The position numbers were made by a program, and so were the translations under genes. The notes below the pieces were generated by a model, which worked only from the letters and a program-made list of their open reading frames with translations, did no database searches and was not told the DNA's origin. Below, piece after piece: positions 1,870 to 63,587 of a DNA stretch of 64,000 nt. This stretch comes from Actinomycetes bacterium. GTDB lineage: Bacteria; Bacillota; Sulfobacillia; Sulfobacillales; JAIMBI01. The stretch's first letter is position 1; each line of letters starts with the position of its first letter. The stretch covers positions 62,001 to 126,000 of the forward strand of contig JAIMBI010000006.1 in assembly GCA_023565505.1 (NCBI GenBank), given 5' to 3'.

Positions 1870-2156
1870 CCCCGCCGAGCCGCGGCCGGCGCCGCCGGCG
1901 GCCCGGCCCGGCGCCACATTCCCGCCGTTCGCCCGCGGCCTCGCGTCGCCTCTTCTTGCTTGACCGCGGGCGCTCTGCGCCCTTCCGCGCGGGACAGGAT
2001 GGTCCCGTCCGGTGGAAGGGCGCTCTGTTTCAGCGTCGTGAACCGTCCCCGGAGTCGCCCGCCCGCTGTTTGGGCGCCGTCCCGGTCGGCCCGCCCCGGA
2101 ATAGGCACGGAGGCCGGGGGAGATGTTAACGGACGGCGTCGGCGCGAGGAGAGCGC

Positions 2157-55199: not shown

Positions 55200-55433
55200 G
55201 AGGGCCCGCGACGGCACGGCGCCGGGGGGGAACGGGTCCGGCCCGGCCCGCCGGAGACGGCGATCCGGGGCGGTGGACCGTCCCGGCGCGCCGACGCCCC
55301 GGGGATCCGCCGTCACCCCGACCGCCGGCTCGGCGCACCGAGGGTTGTGCGACGACGCCGGCTGTTCTTTATTGGTGGAAGAACGAGGCGCCGGGGATGC
55401 CGCTTGGCGGGGACGGCGTCGGGCGAAGGGGGA

Positions 55434-57265: not shown

Positions 57266-57640
57266 ATGGCGCGGGCCGCGGTGATCTCGGCCGAACGGGT
57301 GCCCTGGTCGCAGCCTCCGGGGCATTTCGAAGCGTATTCCAAGTATCTCGTGGATCCGGACCGGACCGACAGCCGGCACTTCGACTTCCGGGTCTCCATC
57401 TATCAACCGCGCGGGTACGCGGCGGTCCACCGCCACGAGGCGGCCGAACAGATCTACTACATCCTGCGCGGGACCGCCCTCGTGACCCTCGACGGGGAAC
57501 CGCACGTGCTCCATCCCCACGATTTGGTGTTCATCCCGCCCGGGGTGGACCACGGAATCAGCAACTCGGGGTTCGAGGACTTGGTGTTCATCGTCGTGAC
57601 GTCGCCGCCGGAGACCGGGTCCCGCGGTGACGGCGCCTGA
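57266..57640 (+). CDS. Single-domain cupin protein
   Basis: 124-residue cupin. Motif 1 is YAAVHRHEAAEQIYYILRG (metal ligands His-x-His and Glu, followed by Gly) and motif 2 is PHDLVFIPPGVDHGISNSG with the fourth His. Small metal-dependent cupins act as isomerases, dioxygenases or storage-like binding proteins. Transcribed with the TPP enzyme and SDR, so it probably processes or isomerises the same small carbonyl compound. Start after GAAGGGAGGGA. Confidence 0.85.
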   Translation: MARAAVISAERVPWSQPPGHFEAYSKYLVDPDRTDSRHFDFRVSIYQPRGYAAVHRHEAAEQIYYILRGTALVTLDGEPHVLHPHDLVFIPPGVDHGISNSGFEDLVFIVVTSPPETGSRGDGA

Positions 57641-57656
57641 GGGGAGGCGGTCGGGG

Positions 57657-58412
57657 ATGGCCGGACGGCTTCAGGACCGGGTGGCGGTCGTGACGGGGGC
57701 GGCCCGGGGCAACGGCCGGGCTATCGCGGAGGCATACGCGCGGGAAGGCGCGGTCGTGGTGGTGGCGGATCGGGACGGACCGGGGGCCCGCGACGCGGCG
57801 GAGGCCATCGTCGCCGCGGGCGGGCGGGCGGAGGCGGCCACGCTCGACGTCACGCAGGCCGCCGAGATCGAGGCGGTTCTGGACGCGGTGACCGGGCGCC
57901 ACGGGCGGCTGGACATCCTGGTCAACAACGCGGGCGTCATTGGGCGCTTCCCGTTCCTGGAGATCACGGAGGCCGAGTGGGACCGCGTGCTCGACATCAA
58001 CCTCAAGGGGACGTTCCTCTGCGGGCAGGCGGCCGCGCGACGCATGGTGGGTCAGGGCCGGGGGGTCATCCTGAACATCGCGTCCGTCAACGCCGAAAGC
58101 GTCAACCCGACGACGGTGCACTACTGCGCCTCCAAGGGAGCGGTAAGGACCCTCACCAAGGGGATGGCCCTGGCGCTGGCGCCGTACGGCATCCGGGTCA
58201 ACGCCATCGGGCCGGGGCCTATCTACACGGACTTGAGCCGGGACCGGCTCGACGATCCCGCGTCGTTGGCGGCCACACTGGCCCATATCCCCATGGGCCG
58301 GGTGGGCCAACCCGCGGATCTGGCCGGGGCGGCGATCTTCCTCGCTTCCGACGAGGCGAGTTACGTGACCGGCATCACCCTGTACGTGGACGGCGGCTGG
58401 CTCACCATGTGA
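57657..58412 (+). CDS. Short-chain dehydrogenase/reductase (second)
   Basis: 251-residue classical SDR: VAVVTGAARGNGRAIAEAYA (with Asn in the place of Ile in GxG), ILVNNAGVIGRFPFLEITEA, catalytic Ser in ILNIASVNAES, Tyr/Lys in HYCASKGAVRTLTKGMALAL, and C-terminal YVTGITLYVDGGWLTM. Start at 57657 is supported by GGGGAGG. It ends the TPP enzyme-cupin set. A reduction or oxidation of a hydroxy-carbonyl intermediate is likely. Confidence 0.9.
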   Translation: MAGRLQDRVAVVTGAARGNGRAIAEAYAREGAVVVVADRDGPGARDAAEAIVAAGGRAEAATLDVTQAAEIEAVLDAVTGRHGRLDILVNNAGVIGRFPFLEITEAEWDRVLDINLKGTFLCGQAAARRMVGQGRGVILNIASVNAESVNPTTVHYCASKGAVRTLTKGMALALAPYGIRVNAIGPGPIYTDLSRDRLDDPASLAATLAHIPMGRVGQPADLAGAAIFLASDEASYVTGITLYVDGGWLTM

Positions 58413-58451
58413 GCGGGCCGCCGGTCCGAGGGGCGGAGTGGCGCGCCGCGG

Positions 58452-58520
58452 GGGCGTCCGGGGCGACGACGGGAGCCGGGGGATCCCGGGCGGGTGGTCG
58501 GGACGTCCGCCCCGACGCCC
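58452..58520 (+). terminator. Long GC-rich stem after the SDR gene
   Basis: GGGCGTC-C-GGGGCG pairs with CGCCCCGACGCCC (58508-58520) as a 13-bp stem with one bulge and a 42-nt loop, 40 nt after the SDR stop. No T-run. It probably ends the TPP enzyme-cupin-SDR transcript before the liv leader. Confidence 0.4.
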
Positions 58521-58571
58521 TCGTCGCGGTTCGACACGAACCCGGAAAATTTGCGGCGGCGGGCAGGAAAT

Positions 58572-58706
58572 CAGACAGGGCAAGCCGAAAAGAATCGCGG
58601 AACACGGCTGAGCTTGCTTGGTTGCCAACCAATGGCCCAGCCCCGTGACCGGCTAGCTGGTAGCACAGCACGCTTCGGGTCCGACGAGAAGTGTGCTGTG
58701 CTTTTT
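58572..58706 (+). promoter_or_regulatory. Structured leader with terminator upstream of liv operon (candidate attenuator)
   Basis: A less GC-rich block just upstream of livM folds into a series of hairpins: GCAAGC (58580-85)/GCTTGC (58612-17); TTGGTT-GCC-AACCAA (58618-32); CCAGC (58637-41)/GCTGG (58656-60). It ends in a 15-bp terminator stem AGCACAGCACGCTTC / GAAGTGTGCTGTGCT followed by TTTT (58703-06). TGGT at 58658-61 overlaps the base of the terminator, as in T-box leaders, but I find no full T-box sequence or stem I. Best read as a transcription attenuator of unknown ligand for the ABC operon. Confidence 0.55.
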
Positions 58707-58743
58707 GCTGTGTCCGGGCACACGTGCGAGGACGGAGGGCGGT

Positions 58744-59718
58744 ATGAGGGAGTCACGATGGGTGTGGATCGGGCTTGTGGCCATCGGCGTGATCGTGCCG
58801 TTCGTGACGACCCAGACGACGACCTACGTGGCTTCGCTGGTCGTGATCACGGCCATCGCGGTGCTGGGGTTGAACTACATCATCCGCAACACCGGGCAGG
58901 TCTCCATCGGGCATGCCGCCGTGCAGGCCTTCGGGAGCTACTGCGCCGGGATCGTGGCCTCGGCCCTGCATGCCGACTTCGTGGTGGCGCTCGTCGCCGG
59001 CACGTTGGGGGCGGCGATCCTGGGGCTCATCCTGGCCGTGCCGTCCGTGCGGGTCACCGGTCCGTACTTCGCGGTGCTGACGCTCGTGCTCGGCTGGGCG
59101 GTCAACGAGGCGATCCTCCTGTACCCCCAGGTCACGGGGGGCTACACCGGCTTGTTCGTGCAGCCGTTCAGCCTCTTCGCCTCCTCCACGGTGACCATGT
59201 ACTACCTGTCGCTGGCGGCGCTGGTGGCGGCGATGGCGCTGGTCCACAACGTGCACCGCTCCAAGTTCGGGCAGGTCCTCCTGGTCATGAAGCGGAGCCG
59301 GGCGGCGGCCACCACGTTAGGGGTGAACATCAGGTGGTTCATGGTGCTGGCCATCAGCATCGGCAACATGCTGGCGGGACTCAGCGGCGTGCTGTACCTC
59401 TACACGGTCAGCGACATCACGCCCAGCGCCTTCAGCCTGTCCCAGTCGGCGTACTTCCTGGTCGCCAGCGTGGTCGGCGGCGTCGGATCGGTGTTCGGCG
59501 CAATCCTCGGCAGCGCGGTGATCGTCTTGATCCCGCAGGCCCTGTCCAACTTGGAATGGTACGCCAACATCATTCTGGGAGCCATCCTGATCGCCGTCCT
59601 GCTCTGGCGGCCCGGCGGGCTGTGGCCGAGCCGGGCCCGCCGGGCCGGTCCGCCGGCGGCCGCCGCCGGGGTGGCCCCGGCCGAGCGGGGTGAGGTCTCG
59701 CGTGCTACTCAGGGTTGA
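58744..59718 (+). CDS. livM: Branched-chain amino acid-type ABC permease (LivM family)
   Basis: 324-residue inner-membrane permease with about ten hydrophobic segments. Family motifs: LNYIIRNTGQVSIGHAAVQA, VRVTGPYFAVLTLVLGWAVN, KFGQVLLVMKRSRAAATTLG (the EAA-like ABC contact loop), and SVVGGVGSVFGAILGSAVIV. First gene of livM-livG-livF-binding protein-livH. It imports branched-chain amino acids or, equally common in this family, aromatic or short organic acids, which fits the catabolic setting better. The upstream terminator suggests attenuation control. Confidence 0.9.
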   Translation: MRESRWVWIGLVAIGVIVPFVTTQTTTYVASLVVITAIAVLGLNYIIRNTGQVSIGHAAVQAFGSYCAGIVASALHADFVVALVAGTLGAAILGLILAVPSVRVTGPYFAVLTLVLGWAVNEAILLYPQVTGGYTGLFVQPFSLFASSTVTMYYLSLAALVAAMALVHNVHRSKFGQVLLVMKRSRAAATTLGVNIRWFMVLAISIGNMLAGLSGVLYLYTVSDITPSAFSLSQSAYFLVASVVGGVGSVFGAILGSAVIVLIPQALSNLEWYANIILGAILIAVLLWRPGGLWPSRARRAGPPAAAAGVAPAERGEVSRATQG

Positions 59719-60481
59719 GGACCTCGTGGTCCGCTTCGGCGGACTGACCGCCGTCGACCACATGGCGCTGGCGGTGCAGGAGGGCGAGATCATCGGCTTG
59801 ATCGGCCCCAACGGGGCGGGCAAGTCGACGTTGCTCAACGCCGTGAGCCGGCTCGTGCCGGCCGAGGGCCACGTCACCCTGCATCGCCGGGACCGGGACC
59901 CCGTGGACCTGCTGACGGTTCCGCCCTGGACGGTCGTGCGCCACGGTGTCGCCCGGACCTTCCAGCATCCGCAGCTGGCGCCGGACCTGACCGTCGCGGC
60001 CAACATGGGCCTGGGTCTGTTCGCCCGGAGCCGGACGAGCTGGCTGGCCGCCGGGCTCAGGCTGCCGAGCGTCCGCGCGGAGGAACGCCGGGTCCAGGAA
60101 GACGTGGTGCGGACGGCCGAGTTCTTGGGCGTCGCGCAGTGGCTGGACCAACTGCCCGGCTCGTTGCCGTACGGGATTCAGAAGTTGGTCGAGTTGGGTC
60201 GGGCCATCCTGGCCCATCCGGTCCTTCTGCTCCTCGACGAGCCGGCCGCGGGTCTGAACAGCGCGGAGAAGGCCGTCATGCAGCGGCTGTTGCTCGAGGT
60301 GCGCCAAGCCTACGGCCTGTCGATGATTGTGGTGGACCACGACATGGAATTCATCTTCGGATTGTCGGATCGCATCTATGCCATGAACTTCGGGACGTTG
60401 CTCGCGTCCGGCACGCCCGACGCAATCCGCGGCAACGCGGCGGTTCAAGAGGCGTACCTGGGGCAGGAAGACGACCGGTGA
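59702..60481 (+). CDS. livG: ABC transporter ATPase (LivG family)
   Basis: About 259-residue ATPase: Walker A IGPNGAGKSTLLNAVSRL, Q-loop region GVARTFQHPQLAPDLTVAAN, signature LPYGIQKLVELGRAI (degenerate LSGGQ), Walker B VLLLLDEPAAGLN, switch His in VDHDMEF. GTG at 59702 follows GGTGAGGT; another GTG (59690) is possible. Overlaps the end of livM, so the two are coupled. Pairs with LivF to power the importer. Confidence 0.92.
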   Translation: MLLRVEDLVVRFGGLTAVDHMALAVQEGEIIGLIGPNGAGKSTLLNAVSRLVPAEGHVTLHRRDRDPVDLLTVPPWTVVRHGVARTFQHPQLAPDLTVAANMGLGLFARSRTSWLAAGLRLPSVRAEERRVQEDVVRTAEFLGVAQWLDQLPGSLPYGIQKLVELGRAILAHPVLLLLDEPAAGLNSAEKAVMQRLLLEVRQAYGLSMIVVDHDMEFIFGLSDRIYAMNFGTLLASGTPDAIRGNAAVQEAYLGQEDDR

Positions 60482-60572
60482 GGCGGCTTCGGGCGAGGGC
60501 CGGGGCGGCCGGAACGCTCGCGCGTCGGCGCCTCGCGCCCGCGCGCTCCCGGGTGGCGAGGGGGGGAGCCTG

Positions 60573-61289
60573 ATGGCGGTGCTGCTGAAGGTGGAGCATC
60601 TTTCCGTCCGCTACGGTCCCGTGCTGGCCTTGGACGACGTGTCGCTCGCCGTGGAGCGCGGGAGCATCTTCGCGGTGCTCGGTCCCAACGGCGCGGGGAA
60701 GACCTCCCTGCTCAGGGCCATCGCCGGGGTCGTCCGGCCGGCGGGGGGCGACATCTGGTTCGAGGGCACGCTCGTCACGCCGGTGGCGCCGCACCTGCGC
60801 GCGCGCATGGGCCTCGTGTACCAGCCGGAGACCCGGGAGTTGTTCGGGGGCCTGACCGTGGCGAGGAACATCGCGTTGGGGGCGGAGGGGCAGGGACGGT
60901 CCTTGGATCCGGCGCGGTTGAAGGAGATCCTGAGCTACTTCCCGGGGTTGGAGGGCAAGCTGGAACGCCGGCCCAACACCATGAGCGGCGGCGAGCAACA
61001 GATGGTCGCGTTGGCGCGTTCGATGGCCGCCGAACCCAAGTTGCTGGCGATTGACGAGCCGTCCCTGGGGCTCTCGCCGCAGTTGGTGAGCCGCCTGTTC
61101 GGCGTGCTGCGCGACATCGCCCGCAAGGCCGGCCTGACGATCCTTCTGGCCGAGCAGAACGCGCGCATGGCCATGAAGATCGCGGACGAGGCGCTGTTCC
61201 TGCGCACCGGACGGACGGCGCTGGCGGGACCGGTCGCCGCGCTGCAAAGCCGTGACCTTTCGAGCTATTACCTTGGAGCTTCCGGCTGA
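60573..61289 (+). CDS. livF: ABC transporter ATPase (LivF family)
   Basis: 238 residues: Walker A LGPNGAGKTSLLRAIAG, signature TMSGGEQQMVALARSMAAEP, Walker B LLAIDEPSLGLSP, H-loop region replaced by LLAEQNARMAMKI (usual for LivF). Good GGGGGGAG site before ATG. The 91-nt gap after livG is GC-rich with no feature that I can support. Second ATPase of the liv importer. Confidence 0.93.
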   Translation: MAVLLKVEHLSVRYGPVLALDDVSLAVERGSIFAVLGPNGAGKTSLLRAIAGVVRPAGGDIWFEGTLVTPVAPHLRARMGLVYQPETRELFGGLTVARNIALGAEGQGRSLDPARLKEILSYFPGLEGKLERRPNTMSGGEQQMVALARSMAAEPKLLAIDEPSLGLSPQLVSRLFGVLRDIARKAGLTILLAEQNARMAMKIADEALFLRTGRTALAGPVAALQSRDLSSYYLGASG

Positions 61290-61346
61290 GGGAGCCGGGA
61301 AGTTCCGTTTTCCCAAGGATCTGACAAGGTCGTGCAGGAGGGAGAC

Positions 61347-62606
61347 ATGTTGCGGAAATCGGTTCGGCCTTTCTGGTTGGGGGCCACGACGATGCTCCTC
61401 GCAGGCGCTCTGGCGGGGTGTTCCTCGGCGGTCAGCACCGGCTCGACGGCCACCCCCGCGGCGGCTCCGGGAGTCGACGCGAAGACCAAGACCATCACGG
61501 TCGGCGCGTCCACGCCGTTTACCGGGCCGGCGACGGTTTATTCGGAGATCAACATGGGGGCCGCGGCCTATTTCAAGGCTGTCGACGCGAAGGGCGGCAT
61601 CGACGGCTGGAAGATCAACTATACCCTGCTGGACGACGGGTACAATCCGGCCAAGAATCTGGCCAACGTCCAGACGCTGGTCAAGCAGGACCACGTCTTC
61701 GCGATCGTGGTCAACCAGGGGACGCCCACCAACGTGGCCGCGGCGCACTTCCTGGCCAACACCAACGTCCCCGTCGTGGGACCCGCGGAAGGCGCCCCGG
61801 CGTTGTCGCACTACCCCAACTACTTCGTGCTGATGCCGAACTACGCCTGGGAGGCCGGCCTGGCGGCCCAATACGCGGTCCAGAAGCTGGGCGCCACCAA
61901 GGTCGGCATCCTGTACGAGAACGACGACCTGGGGATCCCGGCGAAGACCGGGGCGGAGGCCGAACTCAAGGCGCTGGGGCTCAGCCCCGTCGCGGCGATT
62001 CCGTTCGAGGTGACGACCACCGACTTCTCGCCGTACGTGGGCGAGCTGGCCAGCAAAGGCGCCCAGGCGGTCCTGCTGTGGGGGGCCAACCCCAACGCGG
62101 CGGCGGCGCTCCGGGCGGCGAACCAGATCGGGTTCCACCCAAAGTGGCTGATGGCGTTCTGGATCGCCGACCCGTCCACGTACAAGCTGGCCGGCTCGCT
62201 GCTTGACGGGGTGTACTTCCCGATGTGGTTCCAGCCGCTCGGCAGCCGGTCGCCGGCCATGGAGGCCTACAAGGCGGCCATGCGCACCTACGAGCCGTCC
62301 ACCCCGATCGGCTCCCTCGCCGAGAACGGCTACACCGAGGCCAGTCTGTTCGGCTATGCGCTCAAGGAGCTGTTGGACCAGCACAAGGCCATCACCCAGG
62401 CCAACCTCATCCAGGTGCTGGACTCCCTGCACAACGCCGACATCGGGACCGCCCAAGGCGTGAGCTTCTCGGCCGCCGACCACACGAGCGGCATCCACAG
62501 CGAACGCATCGTGCAGGCGCAGAACGGACAGTTCGTCGCCATCACGGGCCTGCTGCCGTTCCCGCCGGCCGCGGTGCAGGCGGTCGGATCGGGGTCGGGC
62601 CAGTAA
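61347..62606 (+). CDS. livJ: Substrate-binding lipoprotein of Liv-type ABC importer
   Basis: 419 residues. Lipobox LAGC with Cys25 follows a 15-residue hydrophobic segment, then a Ser/Thr/Ala-rich linker and the periplasmic-binding fold (TITVGASTPFTGPATVYSEI; INYTLLDDGYNPAKNLANVQ; FAIVVNQGTPTNVAAAHF; NTNVPVVGPAEGAPALS). In this Gram-positive-type cell it would be anchored outside the membrane. ATG after AGGAGG. The family binds amino acids, aromatic acids or amides; residues around the ligand site do not decide it. Located between livF and livH. Confidence 0.92.
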   Translation: MLRKSVRPFWLGATTMLLAGALAGCSSAVSTGSTATPAAAPGVDAKTKTITVGASTPFTGPATVYSEINMGAAAYFKAVDAKGGIDGWKINYTLLDDGYNPAKNLANVQTLVKQDHVFAIVVNQGTPTNVAAAHFLANTNVPVVGPAEGAPALSHYPNYFVLMPNYAWEAGLAAQYAVQKLGATKVGILYENDDLGIPAKTGAEAELKALGLSPVAAIPFEVTTTDFSPYVGELASKGAQAVLLWGANPNAAAALRAANQIGFHPKWLMAFWIADPSTYKLAGSLLDGVYFPMWFQPLGSRSPAMEAYKAAMRTYEPSTPIGSLAENGYTEASLFGYALKELLDQHKAITQANLIQVLDSLHNADIGTAQGVSFSAADHTSGIHSERIVQAQNGQFVAITGLLPFPPAAVQAVGSGSGQ

Positions 62607-62624
62607 GGCGGCGACGCGATCGGT

Positions 62625-62650
62625 GCGGGCAGCCGCTGGCGGCTGCCCGC
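62625..62650 (+). terminator. Intra-operon hairpin between binding protein and livH
   Basis: Perfect 11-bp stem GCGGGCAGCCG / CGGCTGCCCGC with loop CTGG, without a T-run, 18 nt after the binding protein stop. Such hairpins often protect the upstream mRNA or partly stop transcription so that the binding protein exceeds the permease. Confidence 0.5.
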
Positions 62651-62663
62651 GAAAGGGGGGGCC

Positions 62664-63587
62664 ATGGGCAACTTCCTTACCGTGGTCGTGTCCGGCCTGA
62701 GCACCGGGATGCTGTACGGGCTCATCGGTCTCGGCCTGGTGCTCGTCTACCGGGCCTCCAAGGTGCTGAACTTCGCCTACGGGGACATGGTGACCGTCCT
62801 GGCCTACCTGGCGTATACCCTGGCCGGCGTGTTCCACCTCCCGTGGCCGGTCCTGCTGGGATGCACCGTGTGCCTGGGGGCGCTTCTGGGCATCGTGGTG
62901 AAGGCGGGCCTCGTGGACCCCCTGGGGCGGCAGGCCGACGCGACGTGGCGGCTTTACGGGCTGTACGACGAGTCCACGTTGCTGAACCTGGTCATCGGGA
63001 CCATGGGGTTGTCCCTCGTCCTGGAGGGCGCCGAGGCTGCCGTCTGGGGAACGTCGGTGACGAGCCTGCCGTCGGTGGCCGGGAATCTCACGTGGACCGT
63101 CGGAACGTTCCACGTGGCCGTCAACGCGGTCGTCACGATCCTGGCCGGGGCCGCGGTCACCGGCGGACTGGCCCTGCTGCTGGAGCGGACGCGGATCGGG
63201 CGGCAGATCCAGGCGACCTACGAGAATCCCTTCGGGGCCACCCTGGTCGGCGTGGACGTCCGGCGCGTGTATACGGCGGTCTGGATCATAAGCCTGGTGG
63301 CGGCGGCCGTGGCGGCCATCTTCGCCACCCCGGTCACGTATCTCAGTTCCACGAGCCTCGTCTCCTTCTCGTTCATCGGCTTCGTCGCGATCATCGTCGG
63401 CGGCTTGACCAACGTGTGGGGAGCGGTCCTCGGGGGCATCGTCCTGGGGGTCATCCAGAACCTCGTCGCAGGATATGTCTCCTCGGGCTTGGAACAGATC
63501 GTCATCTTCCTGTTCGTGTTGGCCGTGCTGCTCGTGCGGCCCTACGGATTGTTCGCGAATCCGCGTCAGTACACCGAGCGGGTCTGA
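62664..63587 (+). CDS. livH: Branched-chain amino acid-type ABC permease (LivH family)
   Basis: 307-residue permease with about eight to nine membrane segments. Motifs LIGLGLVLVYRASKVLNFAY, GDMVTVLAYLAYTLAGVFHL, TRIGRQIQATYENPFGATLV (ABC contact loop), GFVAIIVGGLTNVWGAVLGG. Completes the importer as the partner of LivM. AAGGGGGGGG precedes the ATG. An extra segment around residues 90-105 (GRQADATWRLYGLYDESTLL) is more polar than usual for the family. Confidence 0.92.
   Translation: MGNFLTVVVSGLSTGMLYGLIGLGLVLVYRASKVLNFAYGDMVTVLAYLAYTLAGVFHLPWPVLLGCTVCLGALLGIVVKAGLVDPLGRQADATWRLYGLYDESTLLNLVIGTMGLSLVLEGAEAAVWGTSVTSLPSVAGNLTWTVGTFHVAVNAVVTILAGAAVTGGLALLLERTRIGRQIQATYENPFGATLVGVDVRRVYTAVWIISLVAAAVAAIFATPVTYLSSTSLVSFSFIGFVAIIVGGLTNVWGAVLGGIVLGVIQNLVAGYVSSGLEQIVIFLFVLAVLLVRPYGLFANPRQYTERV

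Follow-up and report, generated by a model that had tools for sequence, protein, structure and literature searches.

A strong predicted intrinsic terminator shortly before livM in a GC-rich bacterial genome

Is the sequence in front of a Liv-type transporter operon a regulatory leader, or is it the end of the preceding transcription unit? This question is raised by the gap between an SDR gene and livM in the window, by which we mean the whole 64,000-nucleotide stretch of DNA that was analyzed. Upstream of this gap is a cluster predicted to encode an acyl-CoA dehydrogenase, a metallo-beta-lactamase-fold protein, a TPP-dependent enzyme related to acetolactate synthase, a cupin, and the SDR, for which an alternative ATG start at 57657 is possible. 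Downstream are livM, livG, livF, a periplasmic-binding-protein gene (livK-like), and livH; in this operon (58744-63587) a permease gene comes first and the binding-protein gene fourth. Genes were called with a simple codon model built in this analysis, and GGAGGGCGGT precedes the livM start codon. The gap is longer than approximately 93% of co-directional gaps. The first-pass annotation had described positions 58572-58706 as a structured leader of three hairpins that was less GC-rich than its surroundings. The difference in composition was confirmed, since the GC content of this block is 59.3% compared with 70.3% in the part of the genome that we sampled as background (429,789 bases, about 430 kb), placing it at the 4th percentile of 135-nt stretches.

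Table 1. Predicted features in the SDR-livM gap and its flanks, in window positions.
Feature	Position	Strand	Description
SDR gene, upstream	57627-58412	+	Pfam adh_short_C2, E 2.5e-69
SDR-livM gap	58413-58743	+	331 nt; no coding potential by a gene caller trained on this genome
Imperfect hairpin containing TTGGTTGCCAACCAA	58596-58647	+	Possible fold; z -2.07 for 58595-58647
15-bp DNA palindrome TTGGTTGCCAACCAA	58618-58632	.	Perfect; possible operator
Small hairpin ACCGG-CTAG-CTGGT	58648-58661	+	-4.0 kcal/mol; holds the TGGT of the first-pass annotation; without T-box sequence
Intrinsic terminator	58662-58706	+	15-bp stem, 11-nt apex, TTTTT; -26.8 kcal/mol
Shine-Dalgarno-like GGAGG and livM ATG (58744)	58735-58746	+	Sequence
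livM-like permease gene	58744-59718	+	Pfam BPD_transp_2, E 3.9e-35

The stop signal before livM is real as a predicted intrinsic terminator and is unusually strong. Its sequence, strand, predicted strength, and rarity are shown here. A stable stem-loop, AGCACAGCACGCTTC-GGGTCCGACGA-GAAGTGTGCTGTGCT, occupies positions 58662-58702 and is directly followed by a T-run at 58702-58706. The pairs of the stem are consecutive, one of them being G-U, and this unbroken stem is the longest among 47 stringent hairpin-plus-T-run candidates in the sampled bases of the same genome. By energy, calculated for RNA alone at 37 C, it is eighth of these 47, and its fold was better than all of 500 dinucleotide shuffles (z -5.5). 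The stem and T-run had also been seen in the first-pass annotation, which placed them 38 nt from livM; we measured 37 nt from the T-run to the livM ATG and about 250 nt from the SDR stop codon to the terminator. A simple terminator scanner missed this hairpin, probably because its loop limit is 8 nt. The 15-pair stem with an immediate TTTTT on the coding strand of an intergenic gap is like that of other Rho-independent terminators. It is unlike typical ones in the length of its unbroken stem, in its 11-nt apex, and in its placement, with a long stretch separating it from the upstream stop and a short one from the next start. Other intrinsic-terminator-like hairpins in this genome are found 3' of same-strand genes and tRNAs. 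The window itself contains a second such hairpin at 55325-55370 (-23.8 kcal/mol, T-rich tail), which precedes the TPP-enzyme gene of the cluster by 71 nt and has no notable sequence in common with the region before livM. By energy, the top-ranked hairpin of the sample is at window positions 1978-2024, within a gap (1870-2156) that separates two same-strand genes; its value is -36.8 kcal/mol, and it has a 12-bp outer stem and a TCTGTTTC tail.

On balance, we think it likely that this is an ordinary intrinsic terminator that closes, or partly terminates, the TPP-enzyme/cupin/SDR unit. We infer that the terminator acts and that the transcript it would end is that of the SDR gene. RNA polymerase arriving from the TPP-enzyme, cupin, and SDR genes would transcribe the hairpin and T-run, most transcripts would be released at about 58706, and livM-livG-livF-livK-livH would then owe their transcription to read-through or to a promoter that was not recognized here. 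In this reading, the hairpins on the 5' side of the terminator would belong to GC-rich 3' untranslated RNA and would have no separate function. The high quality of the terminator argues for this reading, as does the failure of our searches to find a sigma-A-like promoter, an antiterminator, a homologue, or an Rfam family. The distance from the SDR stop codon is a counterpoint, as it is somewhat large for a simple 3' end. The spacing is nonetheless not without parallel: the genome also has a terminator on the minus strand at L113 (near 9472) that follows a stop codon by 297 nt and precedes the next same-strand gene by 49 nt. It has a TTTTTTTGT tail and does not match the T-box model, and may be another leader. 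At our locus the distance to livM is too short for a normal promoter and leader, so livM needs either read-through, fixed or regulated, or an unseen promoter. An attenuator would look the same. For this reason we keep alive, as possible but doubtful, a regulated attenuator or riboswitch-like leader, in which transcription would start inside the gap and the RNA of 58590-58661, or a protein bound to it, would choose between termination and read-through to control the transporter.

The location of the terminator, shortly before livM and well after the upstream stop, is consistent with an attenuator, as are the low GC content of the block and the slight excess of structure at 58595-58647 (z -2.1). 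The spacing is also similar to that of a T-box terminator elsewhere in the genome (L127:8454). Like terminating riboswitch and attenuator leaders in general, the region has hairpins and then a terminator just ahead of an operon; unlike them, it yielded no aptamer family, antiterminator, promoter, or relatives. In the stretch from the SDR stop to the terminator, the best sigma-A-like site scored 3.2, compared with a median of 3.1 for random 331-nt stretches. These scores use E. coli-like weights, and both sigma-70-like and sigma-54 types were scanned; with the same scoring, seven of ten host T-box leaders reached 7.9-15.8 (e.g. TTGACA-17-TATATT). The sigma-54 scan of the gap gave nothing above random. 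The best upstream pairing with the 5' arm of the terminator, a candidate antiterminator, had an energy of -15.4 kcal/mol against a shuffled mean of -16.4, and 68% of shuffles were as good or better. No leader-peptide ORF with coding-like composition was found in 58413-58661 when ORFs of at least 20 codons were scored. Nor was a comparable terminator present directly ahead of livM at any of the seven permease genes in the host's other Liv-type clusters or at any of 29 loci in relatives; the hairpins at those other Liv loci were weaker and mostly lay inside upstream genes or had poor T-runs.

Folding of the region upstream of the terminator was only weakly better than that of shuffled sequence, and a structured leader was not confirmed in these predictions. 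The 58595-58647 hairpin was equaled by 17 of 500 shuffles and the 58572-58661 fold by 30 of 500 (z -1.66). Extension to 58540-58661 gave z +0.53, with other pairings in place of the TTGGTT hairpin, which was also missing from the minimum-energy folds of 58540-58706 and 58413-58706. It was retained in that of 58540-58760 (z -0.74).

A search with covariance models from Rfam, including the T-box, had been suggested in the first-pass annotation, which recognized no known riboswitch class and compared the TGGT at the base of the terminator to T-boxes. We ran this search with the 4227 models of Rfam 15 and likewise found no family at gathering score in the window, and a known riboswitch was rejected on this basis. 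At E values up to 10, the sole match in 58300-58900 was SNORA49 (E 8.3), on the other strand and due to chance. The resemblance to T-boxes did not hold up. Like a T-box leader (RF00230), the locus has TGGT at the base of a terminator before a possibly amino-acid-related gene; unlike one, it has no Stem I match, no cmscan match at E up to 10, and no GGTGGTACCGCG-like sequence, the site of this conserved antiterminator element reading AGCTGGTAGCACAGC. T-boxes of the same genome served as a positive control. The model had ten matches there, eight of them at E < 1e-11 and mostly with GGTGGTACCGCG or a close variant, so the test is sensitive here and the locus does not pass it. Only one of these ten host T-boxes (L088-L097) passes the Rfam gathering score of 93 bits and seven others, at 59-74 bits, look canonical, suggesting that T-boxes of this GC-rich lineage are undercounted at that cut-off.

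Our homologue searches suggest that the leader has no believable counterpart in its own genome or in 154 genomes of the class, and that livM itself lacks a close relative. BLASTN with the leader found only itself in its own genome and, in 100 relatives, short, scattered matches mostly at chance level. The best of these (E 3.5e-5, L009) pointed to a conserved block around GGGCAGGAAATCAGACAGGG (58561-58580). We treated this as chance because the match falls at the 3' terminus of a coding region that looks DedA-like by eye, the following matches lie elsewhere and do not share a context, and the genome has the motif in a single copy. A covariance model built from the single sequence and the proposed three-hairpin structure had no other match in the genome; its sole match across the class (154 genomes, E 0.019 per genome) was rejected, as it falls within an ABC-transporter-like gene and many of the stem pairs are broken in it. 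Phage matches to 58486-58531 were short, GC-rich, and attributable to chance, and plasmids gave no match to the leader region. Comparison with the sequence before the TPP-enzyme gene (55200-55433) and with two other terminator-bearing gaps revealed just GC-rich words of 9-12 bases at no common position. The livM product is at best about 35-37% identical to other permeases of relatives. At E < 1e-50, no livM relative was found in the 154 genomes of the class or in 398 genomes of the phylum, and no close one among GTDB contigs scanned with short peptide patterns. We found nothing specific in the literature on RNA control of Liv operons. These results do not favor the new attenuator or ligand-sensing RNA first proposed. 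One form of it, an orphan lineage-specific RNA (58590-58706) that would sense a substrate of the cluster, such as an organic or amino acid, and gate read-through into the transporter, seems to us quite improbable.

The perfect TTGGTT-GCC-AACCAA repeat noted in the first-pass annotation is exactly as described. As DNA it is a 7-1-7 palindrome, which raises the unlikely alternative that a local regulator binds TTGGTTGCCAACCAA as an operator and that the terminator merely insulates livM from upstream transcription. In favor are its perfection over 15 bp in a GC-rich gap and the rarity of such arms: perfect 6-3-6 palindromes with equally AT-rich arms occur three times in 430 kb, or about 0.002 expected per 331 nt. 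Against this, 7-1-7 palindromes of any composition are expected at 0.1 per 331 nt, the genome has one exact copy of TTGGTTGCCAACCAA and no excess of near copies, and no adjoining promoter was recognized. It is very unlikely that a small non-coding RNA is encoded between SDR and livM and has its 3' end at the terminator: the terminator does follow approximately 100 nt of lower-GC, partly structured sequence, and host tRNA genes end at similar hairpins, but no promoter, conservation, or Rfam family was found for it.

If a true attenuator were present at this site, Liv-type transporters, for which few RNA regulators are known, would gain a new one. If the hairpin is only a terminator, as we favor, it matters little beyond indicating where a transcript probably ends in a GC-rich genome of an uncommon kind.
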